NCBI GenBank assembly: GCA_020725925.1
Contig: DYTN01000001.1
Span: forward strand, 1 to 64,000
Reading direction: 5' to 3'
Length of the DNA: 64,000 nucleotides
DNA from: Methanobacteriota archaeon
GTDB lineage: Archaea > Thermoplasmatota > Thermoplasmata > UBA10834
The position numbers and the translations under genes were made by a program. Of this stretch, positions 33,966 to 46,447 are shown one piece after another (position 1 is the first letter of the stretch; each line of letters opens with the position of its first letter). The notes below the pieces were generated by a model. The model saw only the letters and a list, made by a program, of their open reading frames with translations, was not told where the DNA came from and ran no database searches.

Positions 33966-34319
33966 ATGTCTCAGCAAGTGTTGATAGTCATCAACGACGC
34001 GCCATACGGGAGCGAGAAGGCCTACAACGCCCTCAGGCTCGCGATAGCCATGCAGGCCCGGGAGAACAAGATCAACGTGTTCCTGTTGGCCGACGCGGTG
34101 TTCTGCGCAGTGCCGAAGCAGGAGACCCCGCAGGGATACTACAACATCAACGAGATGCTCGGCAGAGTGCTCTCCAAGGGAGGGCGCGTGGCCGCTTGCG
34201 GGAGCTGCATGAAGGCGCGAGGCCTCTCACTCGACGGCCTGCTCAAGGGCGTCGAGCAGGGCTCGATGGCACTGCTGTCCGAATGGACCGAGAAGTGCGA
34301 CAAGGTGCACTCGTTCTAG
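33966..34319 (+). CDS. DsrE/DsrF-like family protein
   Basis: VLIVINDAPYGSEKAYNALRLA...VAACGSCMKARGL; paralogue at 42454-42816. Confidence 0.8.
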   Translation: MSQQVLIVINDAPYGSEKAYNALRLAIAMQARENKINVFLLADAVFCAVPKQETPQGYYNINEMLGRVLSKGGRVAACGSCMKARGLSLDGLLKGVEQGSMALLSEWTEKCDKVHSF

Positions 34320-35899: not shown

Positions 35900-37309
35900 A
35901 TGAGGGAATACGGGCTCATCGTGGTCGGCTCGGGGGCTGGGATGAATGTCGTCGATGCCGCGATTGAGCGCGGCCTCAGGGTCGCCATAGTCGAAGAGGG
36001 CCCTCTGGGGGGCACGTGCCTCAACAGGGGCTGCATACCGTCCAAGGTGCTGGTGCACGCTGCGGACGCCATCCGCGAGGCTCAGGACGCCGAGGCGATC
36101 GGCGTTCACCTGCGGCTAGAGAGCGTGGATTTCAGGCGCATCAAGGAGCGCATGTGGGACATTGTTCTCACAGGCAGGAGGGAGCTCGAGGAGGGCGTGA
36201 AGCACGCCAAGGAGGTGGACCACTACGCGCTCATCGGGTCGTTCGTCTCGGAATATAGCATGTGGGTGGGGGACGAGACCATCAGGGCACCCAGGATAAT
36301 CATAGCCTCCGGGGCGAGAGCGCAGATACCTCCTATCTCCGGCCTCGAAGCCGTCAAGTACCACACCTACAGGACCGTGTTCAACATCGAAGAGCAGCCG
36401 GAGAGCATAGTGATCCTCGGCGGCGGCTACATCGGGTGCGAGTTCGCGCACTTCTTCTCGGCCATAGGAACAAAGGTAGTCCTCGTGGGCAGGAACCCTG
36501 TTCTCCTCCCTCATGAGGAGCCCGAGACGAGCCTGCTGGTCAAGAAGAGCCTCTCGCGACACGTGGAGGTCCACACGGGCACTGCAACGAAGAAGGTCGA
36601 GGGCAGGGAGGGGAAGATCGCAGTCACAGTCGACGATCCGACGGCGGGCGGGGAGCGCGTGGTGGAGGCCCAGCACCTGCTCGTCGCGACGGGCGTGAGG
36701 TCGAACTCGGACTGGCTGATGCCGGAGAAGACAGGCGTCAAGACGGATGACAAGGGCTGGATCCAGACGAACCAGTTCCTCGAGACCTCTAAGGCCAACA
36801 TCTACGCTCTCGGCGACGCGCTGGGCAGGAACATGTACAGGCACACCGCTAACTACGAGGCCAGCGTGGTCAGGAACAACCTGTTCGGCGAGAGGAAGGT
36901 CGCCATCGACCTGCACGCCGTACCTCATGCGGTCTTCACGAACCCGCAGGTCGGCCAGGTCGGCATGACGGAGGAGGAAGCGAAGGTGGGGAGGAAAGTC
37001 ATGGTGGGCGTCGCGAAGTACTTGGACACGGCCATGGGCTTCGCATATGGCGATGAGGAGGCGTTCGTGAAGGTGGTGGTCGAGTATCCTTCGAGAAAGA
37101 TATTGGGTGCGACCGTCGTCGGCCCTCAGGCCTCCATCTTGGTCCAACAGGTCGTGAACCTGATGAACTCAGAGGCGCAGACATATGCCCCCCTCGCGCG
37201 CGCGCAGATCATACATCCCACGCTGTCTGAGGCGCTTGCGGCTGCGTTCGGCAGGATGCGTCCTGTGAACTTCGAGCCTGAGCACCATCATCACGAGCCC
37301 TCTCACTGA
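35900..37309 (+). CDS. Class I pyridine nucleotide-disulfide oxidoreductase (dihydrolipoamide dehydrogenase/mercuric reductase-like)
   Basis: VVGSGAGMNV, GGTCLNRGCIPSK redox motif, IVILGGGYIGCEFAHFF, HPTLSEAL; His-rich tail HHHHEPSH. Confidence 0.88.
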   Translation: MREYGLIVVGSGAGMNVVDAAIERGLRVAIVEEGPLGGTCLNRGCIPSKVLVHAADAIREAQDAEAIGVHLRLESVDFRRIKERMWDIVLTGRRELEEGVKHAKEVDHYALIGSFVSEYSMWVGDETIRAPRIIIASGARAQIPPISGLEAVKYHTYRTVFNIEEQPESIVILGGGYIGCEFAHFFSAIGTKVVLVGRNPVLLPHEEPETSLLVKKSLSRHVEVHTGTATKKVEGREGKIAVTVDDPTAGGERVVEAQHLLVATGVRSNSDWLMPEKTGVKTDDKGWIQTNQFLETSKANIYALGDALGRNMYRHTANYEASVVRNNLFGERKVAIDLHAVPHAVFTNPQVGQVGMTEEEAKVGRKVMVGVAKYLDTAMGFAYGDEEAFVKVVVEYPSRKILGATVVGPQASILVQQVVNLMNSEAQTYAPLARAQIIHPTLSEALAAAFGRMRPVNFEPEHHHHEPSH

Positions 37310-37340
37310 GGCGAGGTGTGAGGGCGGGACCACAAGGGCA

Positions 37341-37822
37341 GTGAAGGGCAGGGGGCACGTGGTGGACGACCCAGAAAGGACCGTCAGCTACGAGCTGACC
37401 TCCCCCCTCCTGTCAGCAGAGGAGGATGGAGCCGGCAGGGTAGGCATGATTGTGAGCAGGCAGAATCCGAATGTGGAGAAGGTGAAGATCGCCCCCAAGC
37501 TCCAACGGCGCTGTGGATATCGACTACCGCGGGCGAGGGCGTGATCGACCCGACGAAACCCTGCCTGTTGACGCAGTCAATCATGGAGTTCCTTGCCGGC
37601 ACGAAGAACGGCGTCGTCCTCCTCGACGGTATCGAGTCCCTCGTCGTCTACAACGACTTCAACCGCGCGCTCAAGGTGCTGAACCAGATCAACGACTTCG
37701 TCATGCAGTATGGCGGCTACCTCATCGTGCCCATCAATCCGGAGGCCTTCGGGGAGAGGGAGAGGGCGATGATTGAGCGCAACTTCGAGACGATATCGGT
37801 CCTGAGCGTCCTGGAGAGCTAG
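37341..37822 (+). pseudogene. DUF835-like protein split by an apparent frameshift
   Basis: N-part GMIVSRQNPNVEKVKIAPKL in one frame; continuation APTALWISTTAGEGVIDPTKPCLLTQSIMEFLAGTKNGVVLLDGIESLVVYNDFNRAL in another; junction beside GCCCCC at about 37491-37497. Confidence 0.7.
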
Positions 37823-38052
37823 CATCCCGGGCCCGGTCAGGGGGGATCGAGACCGACCCCACGACCGATATCCGTAATCACATCTGATAGACCATCGGCG
37901 CCTCCACCTAGGTTCGCTGGACGGGTAGGTACGAGCAGTCTCTCTGCCCTCGAATCAGACCCGGAACGCCAATCGAATCTGATAATCAAACTGAATAACC
38001 GCCGCGGACCCCTTATGAACCCGCCCAGCCAATCCCAAGAGCAGGTATCAGG

Positions 38053-38385
38053 ATGAACCGCTCATCTTCTTCGCTTGACCGCCCCTTCGCGACACGCAGA
38101 CGGACGGTCTCGGGCAGGGTGGTATTCTATGTCGGGCTCGCCCAGGCCGTGCTGTTCATGGTGGGCTCGTTCGCAGTCGGGCTAGGCGTGGTCGAGTTCG
38201 ACCACGAGCAGACGTTCAAATCGGCCTCCCCGCAGAGCGGCACGGTCATCGAGGAGAACCCGGACGCCGAAATGGCTCCGGAGTGGTCCGAGTTGCACAA
38301 CGCCTTCAGCGAGCACGAGGTCGACGCCTCCCAGGTCGATCAGAAGGGCAATGGTAACGACGGGAACCATGGTCGGTCAGGATAG
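38053..38385 (+). CDS. Small single-TM hypothetical protein
   Basis: GRVVFYVGLAQAVLFMVGSFAVGLGVVEF TM; acidic C-terminus. Confidence 0.5.
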   Translation: MNRSSSSLDRPFATRRRTVSGRVVFYVGLAQAVLFMVGSFAVGLGVVEFDHEQTFKSASPQSGTVIEENPDAEMAPEWSELHNAFSEHEVDASQVDQKGNGNDGNHGRSG

Positions 38386-38445
38386 AGCTAGGACCGTCGG
38401 GAGCACGCACGAGCACCGATCATTGGATGCACGAGAGCAGCATTG

Positions 38446-38476
38446 AGTGGGCCCAACCGGGCCAGAACCCGTAAAC
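38446..38476 (+). repeat. Degenerate partial copy of the tRNA-Val 3' end (att-like or relict tRNA)
   Basis: AGTGGGCCCAACCGG identical over 15 nt to 43021-43035, then further partial match (GCCAGAACCCGTAAAC vs ATTCGAACCGGTGAAC, 10/16). Confidence 0.6.
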
Positions 38477-38754
38477 AGCCAGATAGTTAGGACTAGACTC
38501 CAATCCAGTTGCGAATGCGTGAGGCCAGCTCGACAAACCCTTTGACTTCCTTTCTCAAACCCGGATTATGGCCTGAAATTTGATGGCGTTTGACGCTGGG
38601 AGCTTGAGAAGTCATATCCAGATGCGAACCGGAATCCCCGGAATTCTTCGCCGGTAGAAATATCGGTGAGGAGGAATTCAGCTCGGTGCAATAACCCTCT
38701 GATTGAATAAGATCAGGTGATCGGGCTCACACACAGCTCTGTGCACTCACCAGC

Positions 38755-39057
38755 CTATCTCTTTCCGAACTCGGCCCTCATCCTAAGATACTCATCACGA
38801 CCGATCTCGCCGCGTGCGTAACGCTGGTCAAGGATGTCGAGGGGGCGAGGCTGCGGAGGGACATAGACCGGATAGGTATTGTAGACGGGCTTTTCGTCAA
38901 GTCCGCCTATCACAACTATCAGAATCAGGATCAAGATGATGACCGGGATGGCCATAAAAGCCATGCCCGCGCTCCAACCGCCCATCATTCCGTAGTCACC
39001 ACCCGTTCGCGAGAAGCCGCTTGATGCTGCGATGACAATCAGCACCACAGCGATCAC
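38755..39057 (-). CDS. SHOCT-domain small membrane protein
   Basis: TM segments followed by PLDILDQRYARGEIGRDEYLRMRAEFGKR. Confidence 0.75.
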   Translation of the reverse strand: MIAVVLIVIAASSGFSRTGGDYGMMGGWSAGMAFMAIPVIILILILIVVIGGLDEKPVYNTYPVYVPPQPRPLDILDQRYARGEIGRDEYLRMRAEFGKR

Positions 39058-39436
39058 GAGTCCGACTACAAGCCATACTAGAACGCTCGTCTTCCTTTCG
39101 GTCGTTGTGTCACCTCTTGAGATTGCTTACCCGCGCATCCTTTCAATACGCAGTTCTCGAGCGTCTGCCGGAGATGAAGTCGCATCTGGCAACCGCTTCG
39201 AACTTGCTTGCACTTCCCCACCTCTTAACAGTGCTTTATAGGATGCCCCTAACGCCCGTGAGGTGTTATGTTCATCACGTCCTACTAGTCCATTGGATCA
39301 GGACGATCATAGCCTGGGTTCAGCCAGCTTCAACCTGTCAGCCTCCCAAGGGGGTCGAATCTGACACCACGTAGGTCACAGACCATCTGTCAATCCTCGG
39401 AGGAAGCACATTCGTTTGGTGTCAGCCTTAAATATC

Positions 39437-39477
39437 GAGTCGAATATGCAATTATTCGAATATCCGCACGATTCGAC
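39437..39477. promoter_or_regulatory. Putative ArsR operator: inverted repeat TCGAATA-N6-TATTCGA plus a third ATTCGA half-site, beside a TATA-like TTAAATATC
   Basis: TCGAATA at 39440-39446, TATTCGA at 39453-39459, ATTCGA at 39471-39476, directly upstream of ATG 39492. Confidence 0.6.
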
Positions 39478-39491
39478 AAGGTGATGGTAGG

Positions 39492-39836
39492 ATGAATGAC
39501 GTCATCTCTAAGATGCATGCCGAGATGTGTAAGGTGTTCTCAAACCAGTATCGAATTCAGATTTTGAATCAGCTGCGACACGGTGGCTTGAGCGTTGGCA
39601 TGCTGGCAAGGAAACTCGATCTCCCTCAACCGCTAGTTTCTCAGCATCTGGCAATACTCAGGCATAAGGGAGTGATTACACCTCATCCCGAAGGAACCAG
39701 CACGATCTATGAGATCTCCGATCCGAGAATCATCAAAGCATGCGACCTCATGAGAGAAGTGATGATGGAAGAGCTTGAAAAGGCAACCAAGCTAGCCAAG
39801 CTGGCCAAAAAGAGACGAAAAGAGACCGAGAGATGA
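39492..39836 (+). CDS. ArsR-family winged-helix regulator
   Basis: MCKVFSNQYRIQILNQLRHGGLSVGMLARKLDLPQPLVSQHLAILRHKGVI. Confidence 0.85.
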   Translation: MNDVISKMHAEMCKVFSNQYRIQILNQLRHGGLSVGMLARKLDLPQPLVSQHLAILRHKGVITPHPEGTSTIYEISDPRIIKACDLMREVMMEELEKATKLAKLAKKRRKETER

Positions 39837-39896
39837 GAGGGGACTTGCAGGAAGTTGGAACTGTCACAAGCATGTTGTGAACCGAGGGGGAGTTAG

Positions 39897-40436
39897 ATGG
39901 AAGACGAAATCAAGAACGGAGTGAATCTGACGAAATATCGCGAATTCATAGAAACTGTCAAGCAAGAACCTGCCTTGGGCATCAAGAGGTTGCAGGTCGA
40001 AGGGGAATGGAATTCTGCCGGACCTGCTCCTCATTTCGCTGCTTTTCTTGATGCCGAGAGCGGAAAGGTGAGGGTGGAGTTCGATGAGCCCCAGTTCCTT
40101 GGTGGAGGGTTCACAGCGCCCAATCCCAACCAATACTGCATCGCGGGAGCAATAGCCTGCTATGCCTCGAGCCTTTCGAAATGGGCCGCTATGACCGGAG
40201 TCAGTATCCGCAAGTTGGCGATCAACGCCGCCACGAACATCGACATGAGCAAGAGCCTTGGTGTGTCCGAGAATCCTCCGGTCGAGGCGATAGAGTTTGA
40301 AGTGATGGTCGATTCTGACGCCACATTCGAGGAACTGTTGAAAGTCAAGAAGCTGGCGGATGAGCGATGTCCGGGCGTGTACTGTCTAACTCACGCACTC
40401 AAGTTGGACATCCGGCTCAGACGAATCGAGAAGTGA
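39897..40436 (+). CDS. OsmC-like protein
   Basis: FLGGGFTAPNPNQYCIAGAIACYASS...ERCPGVYCLTHAL; two-Cys OsmC pattern. Confidence 0.75.
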   Translation: MEDEIKNGVNLTKYREFIETVKQEPALGIKRLQVEGEWNSAGPAPHFAAFLDAESGKVRVEFDEPQFLGGGFTAPNPNQYCIAGAIACYASSLSKWAAMTGVSIRKLAINAATNIDMSKSLGVSENPPVEAIEFEVMVDSDATFEELLKVKKLADERCPGVYCLTHALKLDIRLRRIEK

Positions 40437-40440
40437 GAAT

Positions 40441-41193
40441 GTGAGCATTAATGCCAAGCCGCAGATTGACCCCGAGAGATACGAGTCCTGGAGATCTCAA
40501 GAAGACCTAGACGTGCAATTCGCGCTGGGCCGGATTGACACAAAGGAGTATCGACGCCGGCGCGACGAGGCTGCTTCACGCCTTCAGGCAAAGGGAAGAC
40601 CCCCTTCCAAGGAGAGAGACGATCCCTTGAGGTGGCTTCCAATCATCGCGGTTGCGCTGGTCGTGCTGATAGTCGTGACCGGCTCTATCTTTGTTGCTCG
40701 TCCATCGCCCTCGCTCTCAGTCTCGGTGTCCTCACCACAGAGGATCTCTCAGACAGACCTCGATAGCATGGTGTCGGGGGCCAATGCGACGACATACGCC
40801 TCCAACAATACTATCTGGGTCGGTGCTGGTGTGTCCAGGCTGGTTTTCCTGGCAGCCCCACCCGGACACGATGAGATATTCGTCATCAACGGCCTGCTCA
40901 ATCCAACGATATACGTCTCCAAAGGCTCGCAGTTGACCGTGACACTGGCAAACGCAGACCTTGACATGTACCACAATCTCGCAGTGACCACGAGGGACCC
41001 GCCGTACTCCTCGATGCCAATGATGAGTCATATGGGCGGCCCTAGGACCAGCATGCTGTCGCACTCCGAGACCGGTTACTACTGGGTTCAGGACATGCGT
41101 ATTGCGGCGAATTCCCCCGGCCAATACTGGTATATGTGTGAATACCCAGATCATGCGGCAATCGGGATGTACGGGAGTCTCGTCATATCTTGA
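40441..41193 (+). CDS. Membrane-anchored cupredoxin (sulfocyanin-like) with N-terminal SHOCT-like segment
   Basis: DLDVQFALGRIDTKEYRRRRDEA, one TM, then MYHNL...YMCEYPDHAAIGMYG (His; C-x4-H-x4-M) typical type-1 copper ligands. Confidence 0.8.
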   Translation: MSINAKPQIDPERYESWRSQEDLDVQFALGRIDTKEYRRRRDEAASRLQAKGRPPSKERDDPLRWLPIIAVALVVLIVVTGSIFVARPSPSLSVSVSSPQRISQTDLDSMVSGANATTYASNNTIWVGAGVSRLVFLAAPPGHDEIFVINGLLNPTIYVSKGSQLTVTLANADLDMYHNLAVTTRDPPYSSMPMMSHMGGPRTSMLSHSETGYYWVQDMRIAANSPGQYWYMCEYPDHAAIGMYGSLVIS

Positions 41194-41204
41194 GTTGATA
41201 GCGG

Positions 41205-42335
41205 ATGAAACCAATCTATCTGGATTACAATGCAAGCACTCCGATCGACCCTGAAGTGATTAAGGAGATGCTGCCCTACCTTCGGGACCGCTTTGGCAAT
41301 CCCTCGAGCAGCCACCTCTATGGCCGCCAGGCGAAAGGCGGCATTGAAGAGGCAAGAAGGCAGATGGCAGAGCTGATCAATGCCAAGGCCAATGAGATGG
41401 TGTTCACCAGCGGAGGGACAGAATCAAACAACATCGCCCTGTGCGGCGTTGCATTCGCGAACCGCAAGAAAGGCAGACGAATCGTGACGAGCGTCACGGA
41501 GCATCCGGCGGTTCTGAACCCGTGCCGATGGCTGCAGACGCAGGGCTTTGATGTCAAGTACATTGGCGTTGACCAATTCGGCGCAGTGGACCTAGAGCAA
41601 CTCGAGACGCTAGTGGACGATTCCACGATCCTGGTCTCCGTGATGCACGCCAACAACGAGACCGGCACCGTCCAGCCAATCCGCGAGATTACCGAGATTG
41701 CTCATCGACGAGGAGCGCTCTTTCACACGGATGCCGCTCAGACGATAGGCAAGTTGAAAGTCGACGTGAAGAGGTTGGGCGTCGACCTTCTGTCGGTGGC
41801 TGGGCACAAGTTCTACGCCCCGAAAGGGATCGGCGCGCTGTTCGTCAGGGATGGAACGGACGTCGAACCGTTTCTGAGGGGAGCTGGCCATGAGCATGGA
41901 CTCAGGCCTGGCACGGAAAACACACTCAGCATTGTCGGGTTGGGTAAGGCGGCGGATATCGCCATGAGAACGATGAGTGAGTATGTTCCCAAGATGCAGA
42001 GCCTCAGGGATCGCCTCCACGGAGCGCTCCTCAAGAGCATAACCGATCTCAGGCTAAATGGACATCCCAAGAAGAGGCTTCCGAACACTCTCAACGTCTC
42101 TGTGCCTGGAATCGACTCTGAGGCACTCCTTGCAGGCACTCCGGAACTGGCCGCATCGACGGGATCAGCGTGTCACGCCAATCGAAGGGAGCCGTCCTCC
42201 GTGCTGACGGCCATGGGCGTACCCGAAGAAGCGGCTCTCGGAGCCCTCAGGTTGAGTCTTGGGAAATGGTCGACCGAGAGGGAGATAACCAGGGCTTCGA
42301 GGATAATCGCAGACAAGGCCGCCGGACTCGCCTGA
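41205..42335 (+). CDS. NifS/IscS-like cysteine desulfurase
   Basis: YLDYNASTP, SGGTESNN, HTDAAQTIGK, SVAGHKFYAPKGIG (PLP Lys), STGSACHANRREPS (active Cys). Confidence 0.92.
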   Translation: MKPIYLDYNASTPIDPEVIKEMLPYLRDRFGNPSSSHLYGRQAKGGIEEARRQMAELINAKANEMVFTSGGTESNNIALCGVAFANRKKGRRIVTSVTEHPAVLNPCRWLQTQGFDVKYIGVDQFGAVDLEQLETLVDDSTILVSVMHANNETGTVQPIREITEIAHRRGALFHTDAAQTIGKLKVDVKRLGVDLLSVAGHKFYAPKGIGALFVRDGTDVEPFLRGAGHEHGLRPGTENTLSIVGLGKAADIAMRTMSEYVPKMQSLRDRLHGALLKSITDLRLNGHPKKRLPNTLNVSVPGIDSEALLAGTPELAASTGSACHANRREPSSVLTAMGVPEEAALGALRLSLGKWSTEREITRASRIIADKAAGLA

Positions 42336-42453
42336 TCCTCTCTGAGACCTTGTGAACAAGCCATACCAGGAATAGTTGCTGTTTTCTTCTCGGGTCGAAT
42401 CACTTCGCGTCCGCCAAAAGGCTATTATTGTCCGACCGTGTGCTCGGCCATCG

Positions 42454-42816
42454 GTGTTGAATGTGGGAGAAAATGTCCTTATCGTGTTGAACGATGCCCC
42501 GTATGGGTCGGAGAAAGCTTACAATGGGCTGCGACTCGCTATTGCGCTCCAGGCTAGAAGCAACAATGTGAATGTGTTCCTGATGGCAGATGCCGTTTTC
42601 TGTGGCGTCCCCAAGCAGGAGACTCCGCCAGGATACTACAACATAGATGAAATGCTCGGAAGAGTCCTGGCAAAGGGCGGACGGGTGGCAGCATGCGGAA
42701 GCTGCATGAAAGCAAGGGGTCTGAGCGTCGAAGGCCTTATCAAAGGCGTTGAGCAAGGTTCCATGGCGCTTCTTTCAGAATGGACCGAGAAGCAAGCGAG
42801 GATCCATTCATTCTGA
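42454..42816 (+). CDS. DsrE/DsrF-like family protein (paralogue of 33966-34319)
   Basis: VLIVLNDAPYGSEKAYNGLRLAIALQ...VAACGSCMKARGLSVEGLIKGVEQGSMALLSEWTEK; start assigned to GTG. Confidence 0.8.
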   Translation: MLNVGENVLIVLNDAPYGSEKAYNGLRLAIALQARSNNVNVFLMADAVFCGVPKQETPPGYYNIDEMLGRVLAKGGRVAACGSCMKARGLSVEGLIKGVEQGSMALLSEWTEKQARIHSF

Positions 42817-43022
42817 TGAGCGCACTTGACAGCGCATCAGCTGTGCAATAACCTCGAGTCTTTCGACATTCATCCATTGTGCGATTTCTCGAGGATGCTT
42901 CTACTCGATGCCTCGAAGAGACTCGAATGTAGGTTCAGCCAGTGACTGTTCTTGGGAATTCAATGACCCCAGAAACCCGATGCTCTGGAATCTGAGGATG
43001 ATTGTCTAGCTGCAACATGAAG

Positions 43023-43095
43023 TGGGCCCAACCGGATTCGAACCGGTGAACTTCTGCGTGTCAAGCAGACGTCATAACCACTAGACCATGGGCCC
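43023..43095 (-). tRNA. tRNA-Val (GAC)
   Basis: GGGCCCA TGGTCTAGTGGTTATGACG TCTGC TTGACAC GCAGA AGTTC ACCGGTTCGAATCCGGT TGGGCCC A; anticodon GAC. Confidence 0.93.
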
Positions 43096-43209: not shown

Positions 43210-44304
43210 ATGGCAGACGGAATCATCGCAGTGTACGCCGGGAGGGGATCCTCTCATTCGTGGACTTGGCTTGCGGACCTGTTCGAGTCCCGCGGTCTCA
43301 CGAGCGCGAGGTTCCTGGACGGCCCGCACTTCATCGGCTCGCTCGAGGCTGAGCCGTCCTTGGCCGTGATATCCGGAGGCGACGGATTCGCGATGGCCTC
43401 CTCCTTGTCAGGAGGAGGCTTTTCTCAGCTGAGCTCGTACATCGGGAGGGGCGGGGTGTACCTCGGGATCTGTGCGGGAGCCTACCTCCCCTTGCATTCG
43501 TCGGTCGCGCCATTCAGCGAATTCAACCTGTCATCTACGAGGATTGAGAACATCGAGCGCGCCCCCGGCCCGCTCGACGAAGTCCCGCCTCGCATGGCGG
43601 TGAGGTACGGTACCTGCGCAATCGTCCATCCTGTCAGGGGCGAGGTCGAGCTCGACGCTGGCCCGGACCCGCTCCTTGCCCCCATCTACGGCGGGCCCGT
43701 GTTCCGAGAGCCGTCTGTTGACGAGGTCATACTGAGGTACCGGTCGTTCACGGATCGAACCGAGTTCCAGCTCGCAGAGCCCCTCGCGTCGAGGATGATG
43801 CTCGGGAAGGCCGCCGGGGTCTCCGCTCGCCAAGGGCGCGGGAGGATGCTCCTGTTAGGTCCTCACCTCGAGCACCCAGGTTATCCCAGGGCCAACGCGC
43901 ACCTGCTCGGGCTCCTGGGGATCCGGTCCGATAGGAGGAGTCCGGGGCCGACAGTAGCGATTGAGGCGGAGAAGCTGCGACGAGCCGTCGCTGATCTCAA
44001 GGTGGCAATCGTCGGTCTCGAGAACAGGTCCTTCGTGGTTGGGAAGAAGCTCTGGGATGGGAGCAGATACCTCGAACTGGTCGATGCAATCGAGAAGCGC
44101 CTCTGCACGGCTGGCCCTGGCCTCGCAGACCACCTATCGAGCCACCTGCTTGAGGTCCGCGAGAGACTGTTGCAGATGAAGTGCGGCATCGAGACGGATG
44201 CAGACGAGACCACTGGGCTCCTTGTGGAAACGGCCAGGAAATGCGTCGACAACCACTTCCAGGTGCTCGCAGGAAAGAGATGGGTATATACAGCTCCAGC
44301 CTGA
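43210..44304 (+). CDS. Class I glutamine amidotransferase-like (BPL_N-type) protein with helical C-terminal extension
   Basis: VYLGICAGAYLPL nucleophile elbow; GPHLEHPGYPRAN; C-terminal coiled region. Confidence 0.65.
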   Translation: MADGIIAVYAGRGSSHSWTWLADLFESRGLTSARFLDGPHFIGSLEAEPSLAVISGGDGFAMASSLSGGGFSQLSSYIGRGGVYLGICAGAYLPLHSSVAPFSEFNLSSTRIENIERAPGPLDEVPPRMAVRYGTCAIVHPVRGEVELDAGPDPLLAPIYGGPVFREPSVDEVILRYRSFTDRTEFQLAEPLASRMMLGKAAGVSARQGRGRMLLLGPHLEHPGYPRANAHLLGLLGIRSDRRSPGPTVAIEAEKLRRAVADLKVAIVGLENRSFVVGKKLWDGSRYLELVDAIEKRLCTAGPGLADHLSSHLLEVRERLLQMKCGIETDADETTGLLVETARKCVDNHFQVLAGKRWVYTAPA

Positions 44305-44315
44305 TTCAAGCGCGG

Positions 44316-45227
44316 ATGTCAGGCCGGTACCTCAAGGACAGGCTCGCGCTCTACCTCCTCTTCCTCGCGGCCGTGGTGGCCTTCTCCGCAATCGTGCTCC
44401 TGCTCCCGTACGAGACGGTCTATGTCTCGGAGAGGTCCTACTTGGAGCTCTTCCTTGCGGTGGTCATCGCATGCGTGGCTGTGTTCGTCCTGGGGACGAT
44501 GTACAACATGCTCGTCTGGATGAGCGGCAAGGGCCTGCACGGGTCGCCCGAGGGGAGGTTGCTGCGGTTGCTCCCGAGAGCGTTCAGGTTCCTTGTGCGC
44601 GGGAGGCTTTGGAAAGCTACCGCAGTGTTTGCCAAGGACGCACTCTACCTGAGCAAACTGAAGGAGAGGAGCGCATCGAGGTGGTCGATGCACCTGCTGA
44701 TACTCGGCGGGTTCATCTCGATGTTCGTGCTCGACATCATCTCCACGATATCGCTGGACATACTGCACTACGCACCTATGATTGAGGAGGACGGTTGGGC
44801 GAAGCTCTGGATAAGGGACTTCGGGTTCGATTTCGCTGGGACCATGATGCTTGCTGGGCTGCTGATCGCGGCGGGGAGGAGATTCGTCCTGAAGCCGAAG
44901 ATCGTCAGGACCGAGCTCCCGGACGCCGTCTCCCTTCTCTTTCTGCTCGCGGTCGTCGTAGGCGGGTTCGTGCTCGAAGGCATCGGGATTGCGGGCGGGA
45001 TATCCGGGCACGAAGCCAACCACGAGTACTCGTTCCTCGGCTACGCCCTCTCTCTGGCGATGCCCGGGTCCTGGGGCGCGTACTACGACCAGATATGGCT
45101 AGTCCACGGTCTCATGAGCGCTCTGCTGATCGCCTACATACCGTTCAGCAAGCTGTTCCACATGGTGGCGACTCCCATCGCGATCGAGGCAGACCGGACG
45201 TCTCCGAAGGCGGTGGGTTCTCCATGA
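44316..45227 (+). CDS. HdrE/DsrM/NarI-like cytochrome b-type membrane subunit
   Basis: Multi-TM with conserved His residues, overlaps start of HdrD-like gene. Confidence 0.75.
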   Translation: MSGRYLKDRLALYLLFLAAVVAFSAIVLLLPYETVYVSERSYLELFLAVVIACVAVFVLGTMYNMLVWMSGKGLHGSPEGRLLRLLPRAFRFLVRGRLWKATAVFAKDALYLSKLKERSASRWSMHLLILGGFISMFVLDIISTISLDILHYAPMIEEDGWAKLWIRDFGFDFAGTMMLAGLLIAAGRRFVLKPKIVRTELPDAVSLLFLLAVVVGGFVLEGIGIAGGISGHEANHEYSFLGYALSLAMPGSWGAYYDQIWLVHGLMSALLIAYIPFSKLFHMVATPIAIEADRTSPKAVGSP

Positions 45228-46447
45228 GGAAGCTGGACATCTCCGGTCTCGACGTGCTCTCGCTCATGCGGTTCGATGCATGCACTCGCTGCGGCGAGTG
45301 CACGTCGACGTGTCCGACAGGCGGCGAGGCCCAGGACATCGAACTCGTCACACCGAGAGGAAAGATACTCAAGCTCAAGGAGTTCTGCAGGATGCAGTAT
45401 GGTCTGAGGGCGAAATTGCTCGGGCCGAAGGACATCCCCGAGGCGCAACTGAGGGAGCTCGCGAGCAGATCCTACGAGTGCACGATATGCGGGCAGTGCA
45501 AGACCGTTTGCCCAGCGCACCTCGACACCATCTCTATGTGGGAGAACATGCGCGAGTTCCTGGTGGCCAATGGCCTCGGCCCGATGGAAGCGCACGCGCA
45601 GATAGTCAAGAGCATCGAGAACTACGGCAACCCTTGGATGCAGCCCAGGACTCAGAGGTCCAGGTGGGCCAAGCGGATCGAGACGGAAGTCAAGACCAAG
45701 GACGTGCTCAAGGAGAAGTGCGAGGTGCTCTACTTCGTCGGGTGCACGGCCGCCTACGACCCGAACATCAGGGACATGGCGGAGAACACTGCCCGAGTAC
45801 TGGTCAACGCGGGGGTCGATTTCGGCACCCTTGGGAACGACGAGGGCTGCTGCGGGTCCACGCTCCTGAGGACCGGCCTTCAGGAATCAGCCAAGAAGAT
45901 GGTCGAAAAGAACATCGAGCTGTTCGAACGCGCATCGCCCTCATTGATTGTCACGAGCTGCGCAGGGTGCTTCAAGACCATCAAGCAGGACTATCCAAAG
46001 ATGGGCGTCGTCCGTCCGAAGGTCGTTCATGTCACGCAGCTCGTGAACGAGCTCCTCGATTCGGGCAGGCTGAGACTGGACAAGCGCGTCGAAGGCACAG
46101 CAACCTTCCACGACCCATGCCATCTCGGCCGGCATAACGGTCTCTACGATGAGCCGAGGAGGATCCTTGAGGCCGTCCCGGGGCTCAGGTTGGTCGAGAT
46201 GGAGCGCAACAGGGCAGAGGCGAGGTGTTGTGGCGCCGGTGGCGGGGTGAAGACGGCCTTCCCGGATCTCGCCCAGAAGGTCTCAGCGCTCAGAGTCGAG
46301 GACGCCGAGCGCTCGGGGGCGGACATGCTCGTTACCTCGTGCCCGTTCTGCTACCAGAGCCTCAAGGCGGGGCTCGAGGCGAAACCATCCAGGGTGAGCA
46401 TGCACGACCTAATGGAGCTGGTCAGCATGGCCTGCTCCCACGGGTAG
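45224..46447 (+). CDS. HdrD/DsrK-like iron-sulfur heterodisulfide reductase-type subunit
   Basis: CTRCGECTSTCPTG, CTICGQCKTVCP, two CCG domains (CCGSTLL...CAGC; CCGAGGGVK...CPFC). Confidence 0.88.
   Translation: MRKLDISGLDVLSLMRFDACTRCGECTSTCPTGGEAQDIELVTPRGKILKLKEFCRMQYGLRAKLLGPKDIPEAQLRELASRSYECTICGQCKTVCPAHLDTISMWENMREFLVANGLGPMEAHAQIVKSIENYGNPWMQPRTQRSRWAKRIETEVKTKDVLKEKCEVLYFVGCTAAYDPNIRDMAENTARVLVNAGVDFGTLGNDEGCCGSTLLRTGLQESAKKMVEKNIELFERASPSLIVTSCAGCFKTIKQDYPKMGVVRPKVVHVTQLVNELLDSGRLRLDKRVEGTATFHDPCHLGRHNGLYDEPRRILEAVPGLRLVEMERNRAEARCCGAGGGVKTAFPDLAQKVSALRVEDAERSGADMLVTSCPFCYQSLKAGLEAKPSRVSMHDLMELVSMACSHG

Follow-up and report, generated by a model that had tools for sequence, protein, structure and literature searches.

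A putative ArsR-controlled operon for sulfane-sulfur handling, with a membrane-anchored blue-copper protein, in a variable genomic slot of a Thermoplasmata archaeon

The DNA analysed here, referred to as the window, comprises positions 1 to 64,000 of contig DYTN01000001.1 from a Thermoplasmata archaeon (assembly GCA_020725925.1). An archaeal origin is borne out by several of its genes, among them EMC6_arch and the domains of an archaeal CCA-adding enzyme. It carries a cluster of five forward-strand genes coding for an ArsR-type regulator, an OsmC-like protein, a membrane-anchored cupredoxin, a NifS-like cysteine desulfurase and a DsrE-like sulfur carrier. A preliminary description had proposed these families, and all five open reading frames were indeed found on the + strand with the corresponding matches. 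Pfam and NCBIfam family names are used throughout as annotation labels, not as tested functions. The locus contains the following features:

39428..39477, + strand: putative arsR promoter and operator, TATA-like CTTAAATA followed by four TCGAAT boxes
39492..39836, + strand: arsR, ArsR/SmtB-type regulator (HTH_5 43 bits; Cys13 and Cys84 are its sole cysteines)
39897..40436, + strand: osmC-like gene (PF02566 above cut-off; four cysteines)
40441..41193, + strand: membrane-anchored rusticyanin-like cupredoxin with N-terminal SHOCT-like helices
41205..42335, + strand: NifS-like (SACH-loop) cysteine desulfurase (pyridoxal phosphate lysine K202, catalytic C323)
42463..42816, + strand: DsrE/YchN-like sulfur carrier (PF02635; CxxC at 78/81)
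38755..~39110, - strand: divergent gene for a SHOCT-domain membrane protein (PF09851 above cut-off)

From arsR to the DsrE gene the intergenic gaps measured 60, 4, 11 and 127 nt in order. The first three agree with the values given earlier; the last had been put at about 118 nt and was corrected because the DsrE start was placed at GTG 42463. Sister genome G005 has an ATG at the equivalent position and a leader that is otherwise alignable; the GTG is probably the true start. The standalone SHOCT gene upstream of arsR had gone unmentioned in the preliminary description. Where its start would be expected, the frame offers neither ATG nor GTG nor TTG, and the real start is uncertain.

Directly after the TATA-like element, the hexamer TCGAAT occurs in four copies, on either strand, within 40 bases from 39440. 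This was the only such place in the window, and none of 200 simulated 64-kb sequences matching its nearest-neighbour statistics had four copies in 40 bases. The palindrome TATTCGAATA at 39453-39462 lies at the centre of the boxes and is present as a single copy in the 2.04-Mb assembly. Inverted repeats were detected at the arsR promoter region; a promoter scan with a bacterial sigma-70 model was uninformative for an archaeon. An identical or similar palindrome precedes arsR in two other loci (L226, L224), and different palindromes do so in L232 and L233. A dyad operator over the promoter of arsR itself is the anatomy of an autoregulated operon, and we infer from it that ArsR represses its own promoter. 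A lone TCGAAT box at 42393-42399, within the 127-nt gap before DsrE, may be an extra ArsR half-site or a chance occurrence.

The regulator matched NCBIfam HTH_metalloreg above cut-off, with 72.5 bits against a cut-off of 55 for NF033788, and its predicted model (pLDDT 92.6) displayed the expected helices and wing. Cys13 was invariant in the window ArsR and twelve aligned homologues from the class; Cys84 was found in 6 of 14 aligned sequences. Membership among the SqrR/BigR persulfide sensors, which have two conserved cysteines in a helix 2 RLxILC motif and in helix 5, was rejected. Indeed, RLQILC of HlyU aligns with RIQILN of the window ArsR, placing Asn26 at the first sensor cysteine, and the NCBIfam BigR match reached 40 bits against a cut-off of 155. 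In most related loci that were read, DsrE, SQR or thioredoxin adjoins this ArsR subgroup: SHOCT, DsrE and SQR (L235 in G092, L236 in G136), DsrE and SQR (L226 in G048), SQR (L228, L229), DsrE and two methyltransferases (L186), thioredoxin (L224, L225), or SHOCT, DUF302 and thioredoxin-like genes (L227). These neighbours point to sulfur or thiol redox rather than to metal pumps. L235, L236 and L226 are compact SHOCT-ArsR-DsrE-SQR operons of related archaea, SHOCT being unseen in L226; we know of no name for them. The ArsR-thioredoxin pairs L224 and L225, with a palindromic element near the arsR start (a perfect 20 bp in L224), recall RexT-TrxA2.

The OsmC-like protein had been described as having two cysteines. 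Two, C88 and C158, do occupy the usual OsmC positions as read from the alignment, and are common to most archaeal relatives aligned, whereas the total is four (81, 88, 158, 163). With C88 and C158 it is a putative peroxidase of the two-cysteine OsmC/Ohr type.

The membrane anchor and C-x4-H-x4-M motif ascribed to the cupredoxin were both found. Two N-terminal SHOCT-like helices are followed by a single transmembrane helix (62-85) and a C-terminal blue-copper domain with the ligands H178, C233, H238 and M243, three of them invariant in 15 homologues and H238 nearly so. In a fold search the predicted model (mean pLDDT 87.7) matched rusticyanin best, with a TM-score of 0.88 on the target. The His-Cys-His-Met ligands and the modelled cupredoxin fold together point to a type 1 copper site. 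The protein thus resembles rusticyanin in fold and motif, but differs in its membrane anchor with SHOCT-like cytoplasmic helices, and it scored 92.9 bits in the NCBIfam rusticyanin equivalog TIGR03095, below the cut-off of 146.7. As to the SHOCT-like segment claimed earlier for its N-terminus, the match to the DUF1707 SHOCT-like family (13 bits) fell below the Pfam cut-off, while the predicted model and a recurrent SHOCT-cupredoxin pairing argue for it. In ten further genomes of the class (L127, L129, L131-L134, L136, L138, L139, L144), the gene immediately upstream of a rusticyanin-like cupredoxin codes for a SHOCT membrane protein, and homologues of the divergent SHOCT protein adjoin ArsR-DsrE-SQR and cupredoxins in related archaea. 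No heme-copper oxidase (COX1) was found in the window genome, a 93% complete assembly, or in G005. The cupredoxin would therefore have no obvious oxidase to serve, and a role as electron donor to a terminal oxidase was rejected.

The NifS-like protein keeps H100, the pyridoxal phosphate-binding Lys202 and the catalytic Cys323 when aligned with 4r5f and IscS, as befits a group I NifS/IscS desulfurase. It missed the NCBIfam equivalog cut-offs for NifS (477 of 531 bits), IscS (405 of 643) and DndA (404 of 480). In the tree it fell outside 18 archaeal IscS proteins (support 100) and grouped among bacterial proteins that are often encoded in sulfur islands. The genome codes for two more NifS/IscS-like desulfurases at other places. 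Bacteroidota and other phyla have NifS-SelD fusions, often with a MnmH (SelU) gene just upstream, at L034, L087 and some 30 loci like them; on a Thermomicrobium roseum plasmid (L221), a PglZ-domain gene is followed by brxL, whose end overlaps a NifS gene of the wider group, with Cmr genes alongside. The DsrE protein scored 74.9 bits with PF02635, above cut-off, and its C-terminal CxxC (C78/C81) is in keeping with the DsrE/YchN family. The nearest solved structure is Escherichia coli YchN (1jx7), of equal length and fold region and with a CxxC-like KLCKTC spacing; to our knowledge, the function of YchN has not been established. No SQR was found in the 93% complete window genome, so that the desulfurase may stand in for it as sulfur source.

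Recurrence of the genes was followed in 390 genomes of the phylum for OsmC, in 200 of the class for cupredoxin and DsrE, in 80 for ArsR and in 60 for NifS, plus the 80 best bacterial NifS loci; many of these genomes were incomplete and plasmid loci were incompletely annotated. Among them the complete set was found nowhere outside the window, which does not speak for a conserved five-gene system. The outcome that the preliminary description had named as refuting, no other genome with the five genes together, came true for the full set in these samples; it did not for sub-pairs, which recurred in other genomes. NifS and DsrE are adjacent in G005, with NifS cut off by the contig end and a gene for a CDF cation exporter next in line, and on plasmids of Methylocystis rosea, Rhizobium sullae and Chelativorans. 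SQR stands between NifS and DsrE in L026, as do SQR and two methyltransferases in L024. ArsR and DsrE are paired in four archaeal loci and on several plasmids, and the order OsmC-X-SHOCT-NifS is seen on Leptospirillum plasmid p49879.2. Since pairs recur in other genomes and the operator boxes were absent from simulated sequence, the cluster appears to be more than a chance arrangement. Four plasmid or chromosomal sulfur islands with an ArsR-rhodanese fusion (L213, L215, L222, L095) all contain DsrE, together with varying sets of MBL, MFS, TauE, rhodanese and methyltransferase genes.

The literature searches returned no paper naming this gene combination and nothing relevant on SHOCT with DsrE, OsmC with sulfane sulfur or persulfide, YchN/DsrE sulfur, SHOCT with copper or cupredoxin, or p49879.2, in line with the earlier remark that no such named system was known. 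All the proteins come from known families; it is their combination that is new as far as known.

Two further features frame the cluster:

33969..34319, + strand: DsrE paralogue, 8 kb from the cluster DsrE and 82% identical to it
43022..43095, - strand: tRNA-Val (gac), boundary of a variable slot; the same tRNA-Val is present in six relatives

The cluster stands out in composition. Its guanine-plus-cytosine (GC) content is 54.7%, whereas the window as a whole has 60.3%, and at third codon positions (GC3) its genes, all five low, range from 57 to 69% against 76-88% in the neighbouring genes measured. ArsR, OsmC and cupredoxin had no match in seven congeners searched; NifS was present in one of the seven, at 86% identity. 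The DsrE copy at 33969 is syntenic with kinase, M48 and Lpd genes, an order conserved in G003 and G007. Given this synteny within the genus and the identity between the two copies, the paralogue is the probable source or sister of the cluster DsrE, which probably arose by local recruitment or came from a congener. In G007 and G009, Lpd and, at the opposite end, tRNA-Val with a biotin-ligase-like gene flank other genes instead: the Lpd-to-tRNA-Val interval, 37309-43022 in the window, holds different genes there, over some 10.5 kb in G007 and some 7.5 kb in G009 (L269, L273). The window cluster is thus the cargo carried in a variable slot; it looks recently assembled and horizontally acquired. 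The tRNA-Val adjoins the same downstream genes in the six relatives, and an internal TGA in the biotin-ligase-like gene of relatives is merely an earlier stop near the C-terminus, as read in G007. Further downstream, at 44181-46447, a NarI-like membrane subunit and an HdrD/DsrK-like iron-sulfur protein are encoded next to the tRNA-Val across the family. This pair was rejected as a functional partner, being ancestral in the family and staying in place while the slot cargo changes.

We give about even weight to the reading that these genes form an ArsR-repressed, recently assembled operon for sulfane-sulfur handling and thiol-redox stress. As the anatomy suggests, ArsR would shut off transcription by sitting on the TCGAAT boxes of the arsR promoter. 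It would be released once Cys13, perhaps together with Cys84, is modified by reactive sulfur or some other thiol-reactive signal. The desulfurase, whose residues are in place, would by analogy with its family form a persulfide on Cys323 with sulfur drawn from cysteine, and might pass this sulfur to the CxxC of DsrE, to judge from the adjacency of the two genes here, in G005 and on plasmids. OsmC may reduce organic persulfides or peroxides. The anchored cupredoxin could bind copper outside the cell and either buffer it or pass electrons to some partner, which is the weakest step of the scheme.

The operon reading is supported by the tight same-strand spacing, the four-box operator with its genome-unique palindrome and the intact catalytic residues. 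The Cys13 subgroup of ArsR beside DsrE, SQR and thioredoxin in related archaea, the NifS-DsrE neighbourhoods of G005 and of the Methylocystis, Rhizobium and Chelativorans plasmids, and the gene order on p49879.2 argue in the same direction, as do the coherent foreign composition, the variable slot and the lack of SQR, for which the desulfurase could supply sulfur. The regulated route of persulfide generation and transfer proposed in the preliminary description is thus backed by ArsR context, NifS-DsrE adjacency, catalytic residues and operator, whereas the proposed coupling to redox chemistry of peroxide or copper at the membrane is at most suggested. Several points weigh against the operon. 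The full set occurred in no other sampled genome, and OsmC and cupredoxin are not consistently linked to NifS and DsrE, nor does anything tie their function to them. Characterised persulfide sensors have a cysteine pair that this ArsR does not, and its Cys84 varies among homologues. Furthermore, the 127-nt gap could hold a separate promoter for DsrE, and the SHOCT gene is divergent, with a doubtful start.

The main rival, which we consider unlikely though deserving of attention, is an operon for resistance to copper or another thiophilic metal, with ArsR as the metal sensor, the cupredoxin as sequestering agent or oxidase for copper outside the cell, and NifS and DsrE repairing iron-sulfur (Fe-S) clusters or supplying metal-binding sulfide. 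The above-cut-off match to the ArsR/SmtB metalloregulator model fits this proposal, but the protein has two cysteines and no CxC-type metal motif, and its nearest relatives lie beside DsrE, SQR and thioredoxin, not pumps. A related cupredoxin near a copper P-type ATPase in G160 (L177, read from sequence), the CDF cation exporter after NifS-DsrE in G005 and a DsrE near multicopper-oxidase-domain genes on a Thioclava plasmid also speak for metals; the window cluster itself, however, is without metal pump or copper chaperone. Somewhat less likely still, the genes may be no single unit at all, with NifS-DsrE, OsmC and SHOCT-cupredoxin as unrelated cargo side by side in an insertion hotspot. The changing content of the Lpd/tRNA-Val slot in G007 and G009 and the uniqueness of the full set would be expected in that case. 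It is harder to reconcile with gaps of 4 and 11 nt joining OsmC, cupredoxin and NifS, with independent parallels for every pair type and with a low GC3 common to all five genes.

The remaining proposals start from the desulfurase. Its NifS/IscS family membership would suit a second, housekeeping enzyme for Fe-S assembly or tRNA thiolation, but this is improbable given the two other such desulfurases in the genome, the missing scaffold or thiolation gene next to it, its place outside the archaeal IscS clade and its linkage to a regulator and DsrE. A selenium supply, with NifS as selenocysteine lyase and OsmC and DsrE handling selenium, appears very improbable. Among the 80 closest NifS genes of bacteria, about 30 are fused to SelD, 14 of these with MnmH (SelU) upstream, and the OsmC resembles the seleno-related model NF041052 (OsmC_like_Se), though below cut-off; yet the window NifS lies outside the SelD-fused clade, and no SelD scored above cut-off in the 93% complete window genome (best match 81.5 bits, cut-off 125) or eight others. 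Both the selenium and the Fe-S readings are unsupported. Most remote of all is a sulfur donor for DNA phosphorothioation: PADLOC models for DndA (505 bits) and SspA (498 bits) gave high scores, but such models fail to tell DndA apart from other NifS proteins, the cut-off of NCBIfam DndA was missed as given above, and no DndBCDE or SspBCD was seen among the annotated neighbouring genes.

More general than the five-gene set is the recurring ArsR/SHOCT/DsrE core with SQR or NifS, which looks like an undescribed module. We propose, tentatively and with less confidence than the operon itself, that archaea and bacteria share a mobile module for sulfane-sulfur stress. Its hallmarks would be a Cys13-type ArsR, a SHOCT membrane protein and DsrE, with SQR and NifS exchangeable as the source of sulfur; in the window this module would be coupled to a SHOCT-fused blue-copper protein. 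If true, a new class of ArsR thiol sensors with a helix-1 cysteine would govern archaeal sulfur-relay genes, SQR and cysteine desulfurases would be swappable sulfur inputs to the same DsrE carrier, and the SHOCT membrane proteins recurring beside sulfur genes and copper proteins would gain a functional setting.

Among known loci, the plasmid modules of Methylocystis rosea (pGW6_1), Rhizobium sullae (pWSM1592_1) and Chelativorans sp. AA-79 share with the window cluster a DsrE beside a SACH-loop NifS and an ArsR-type gene and/or SHOCT protein nearby. They differ in having an ArsR-rhodanese fusion, methyltransferase, MBL and MFS genes and DsrE before NifS, and are without OsmC or cupredoxin. Plasmid p49879.2 of Leptospirillum ferrooxidans has OsmC, a membrane protein, a SHOCT segment and NifS all in one direction. 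There, however, the membrane protein is not a cupredoxin, the OsmC is 25% identical and without the second cysteine, a methyltransferase follows, and no ArsR or DsrE was seen on it.

For the regulator, RexT-TrxA2 (PMC8960804) offers a parallel as a cysteine-based ArsR over a thiol-redox gene, with thioredoxin also beside the relatives of the window ArsR in L224 and L225, although the vicinal Cys40-Cys41 in helix 3 of RexT is missing from the window protein. The SqrR/BigR/YgaV/HlyU/sHdrR-type repressors (PMC12423496, PMC9774250) have in common with it the ArsR fold, an operator of GAAT/ATTC half-sites at their own operon, adjacent sulfur genes and a plausible thiol-sensing role, but in the window ArsR the first sensor position is held by Asn26 and Cys13 sits in helix 1. 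In known sulfane-sulfur ArsR repressors two conserved cysteines are bridged (PMC12423496); a Cys13-based sensor would therefore be of a different design.

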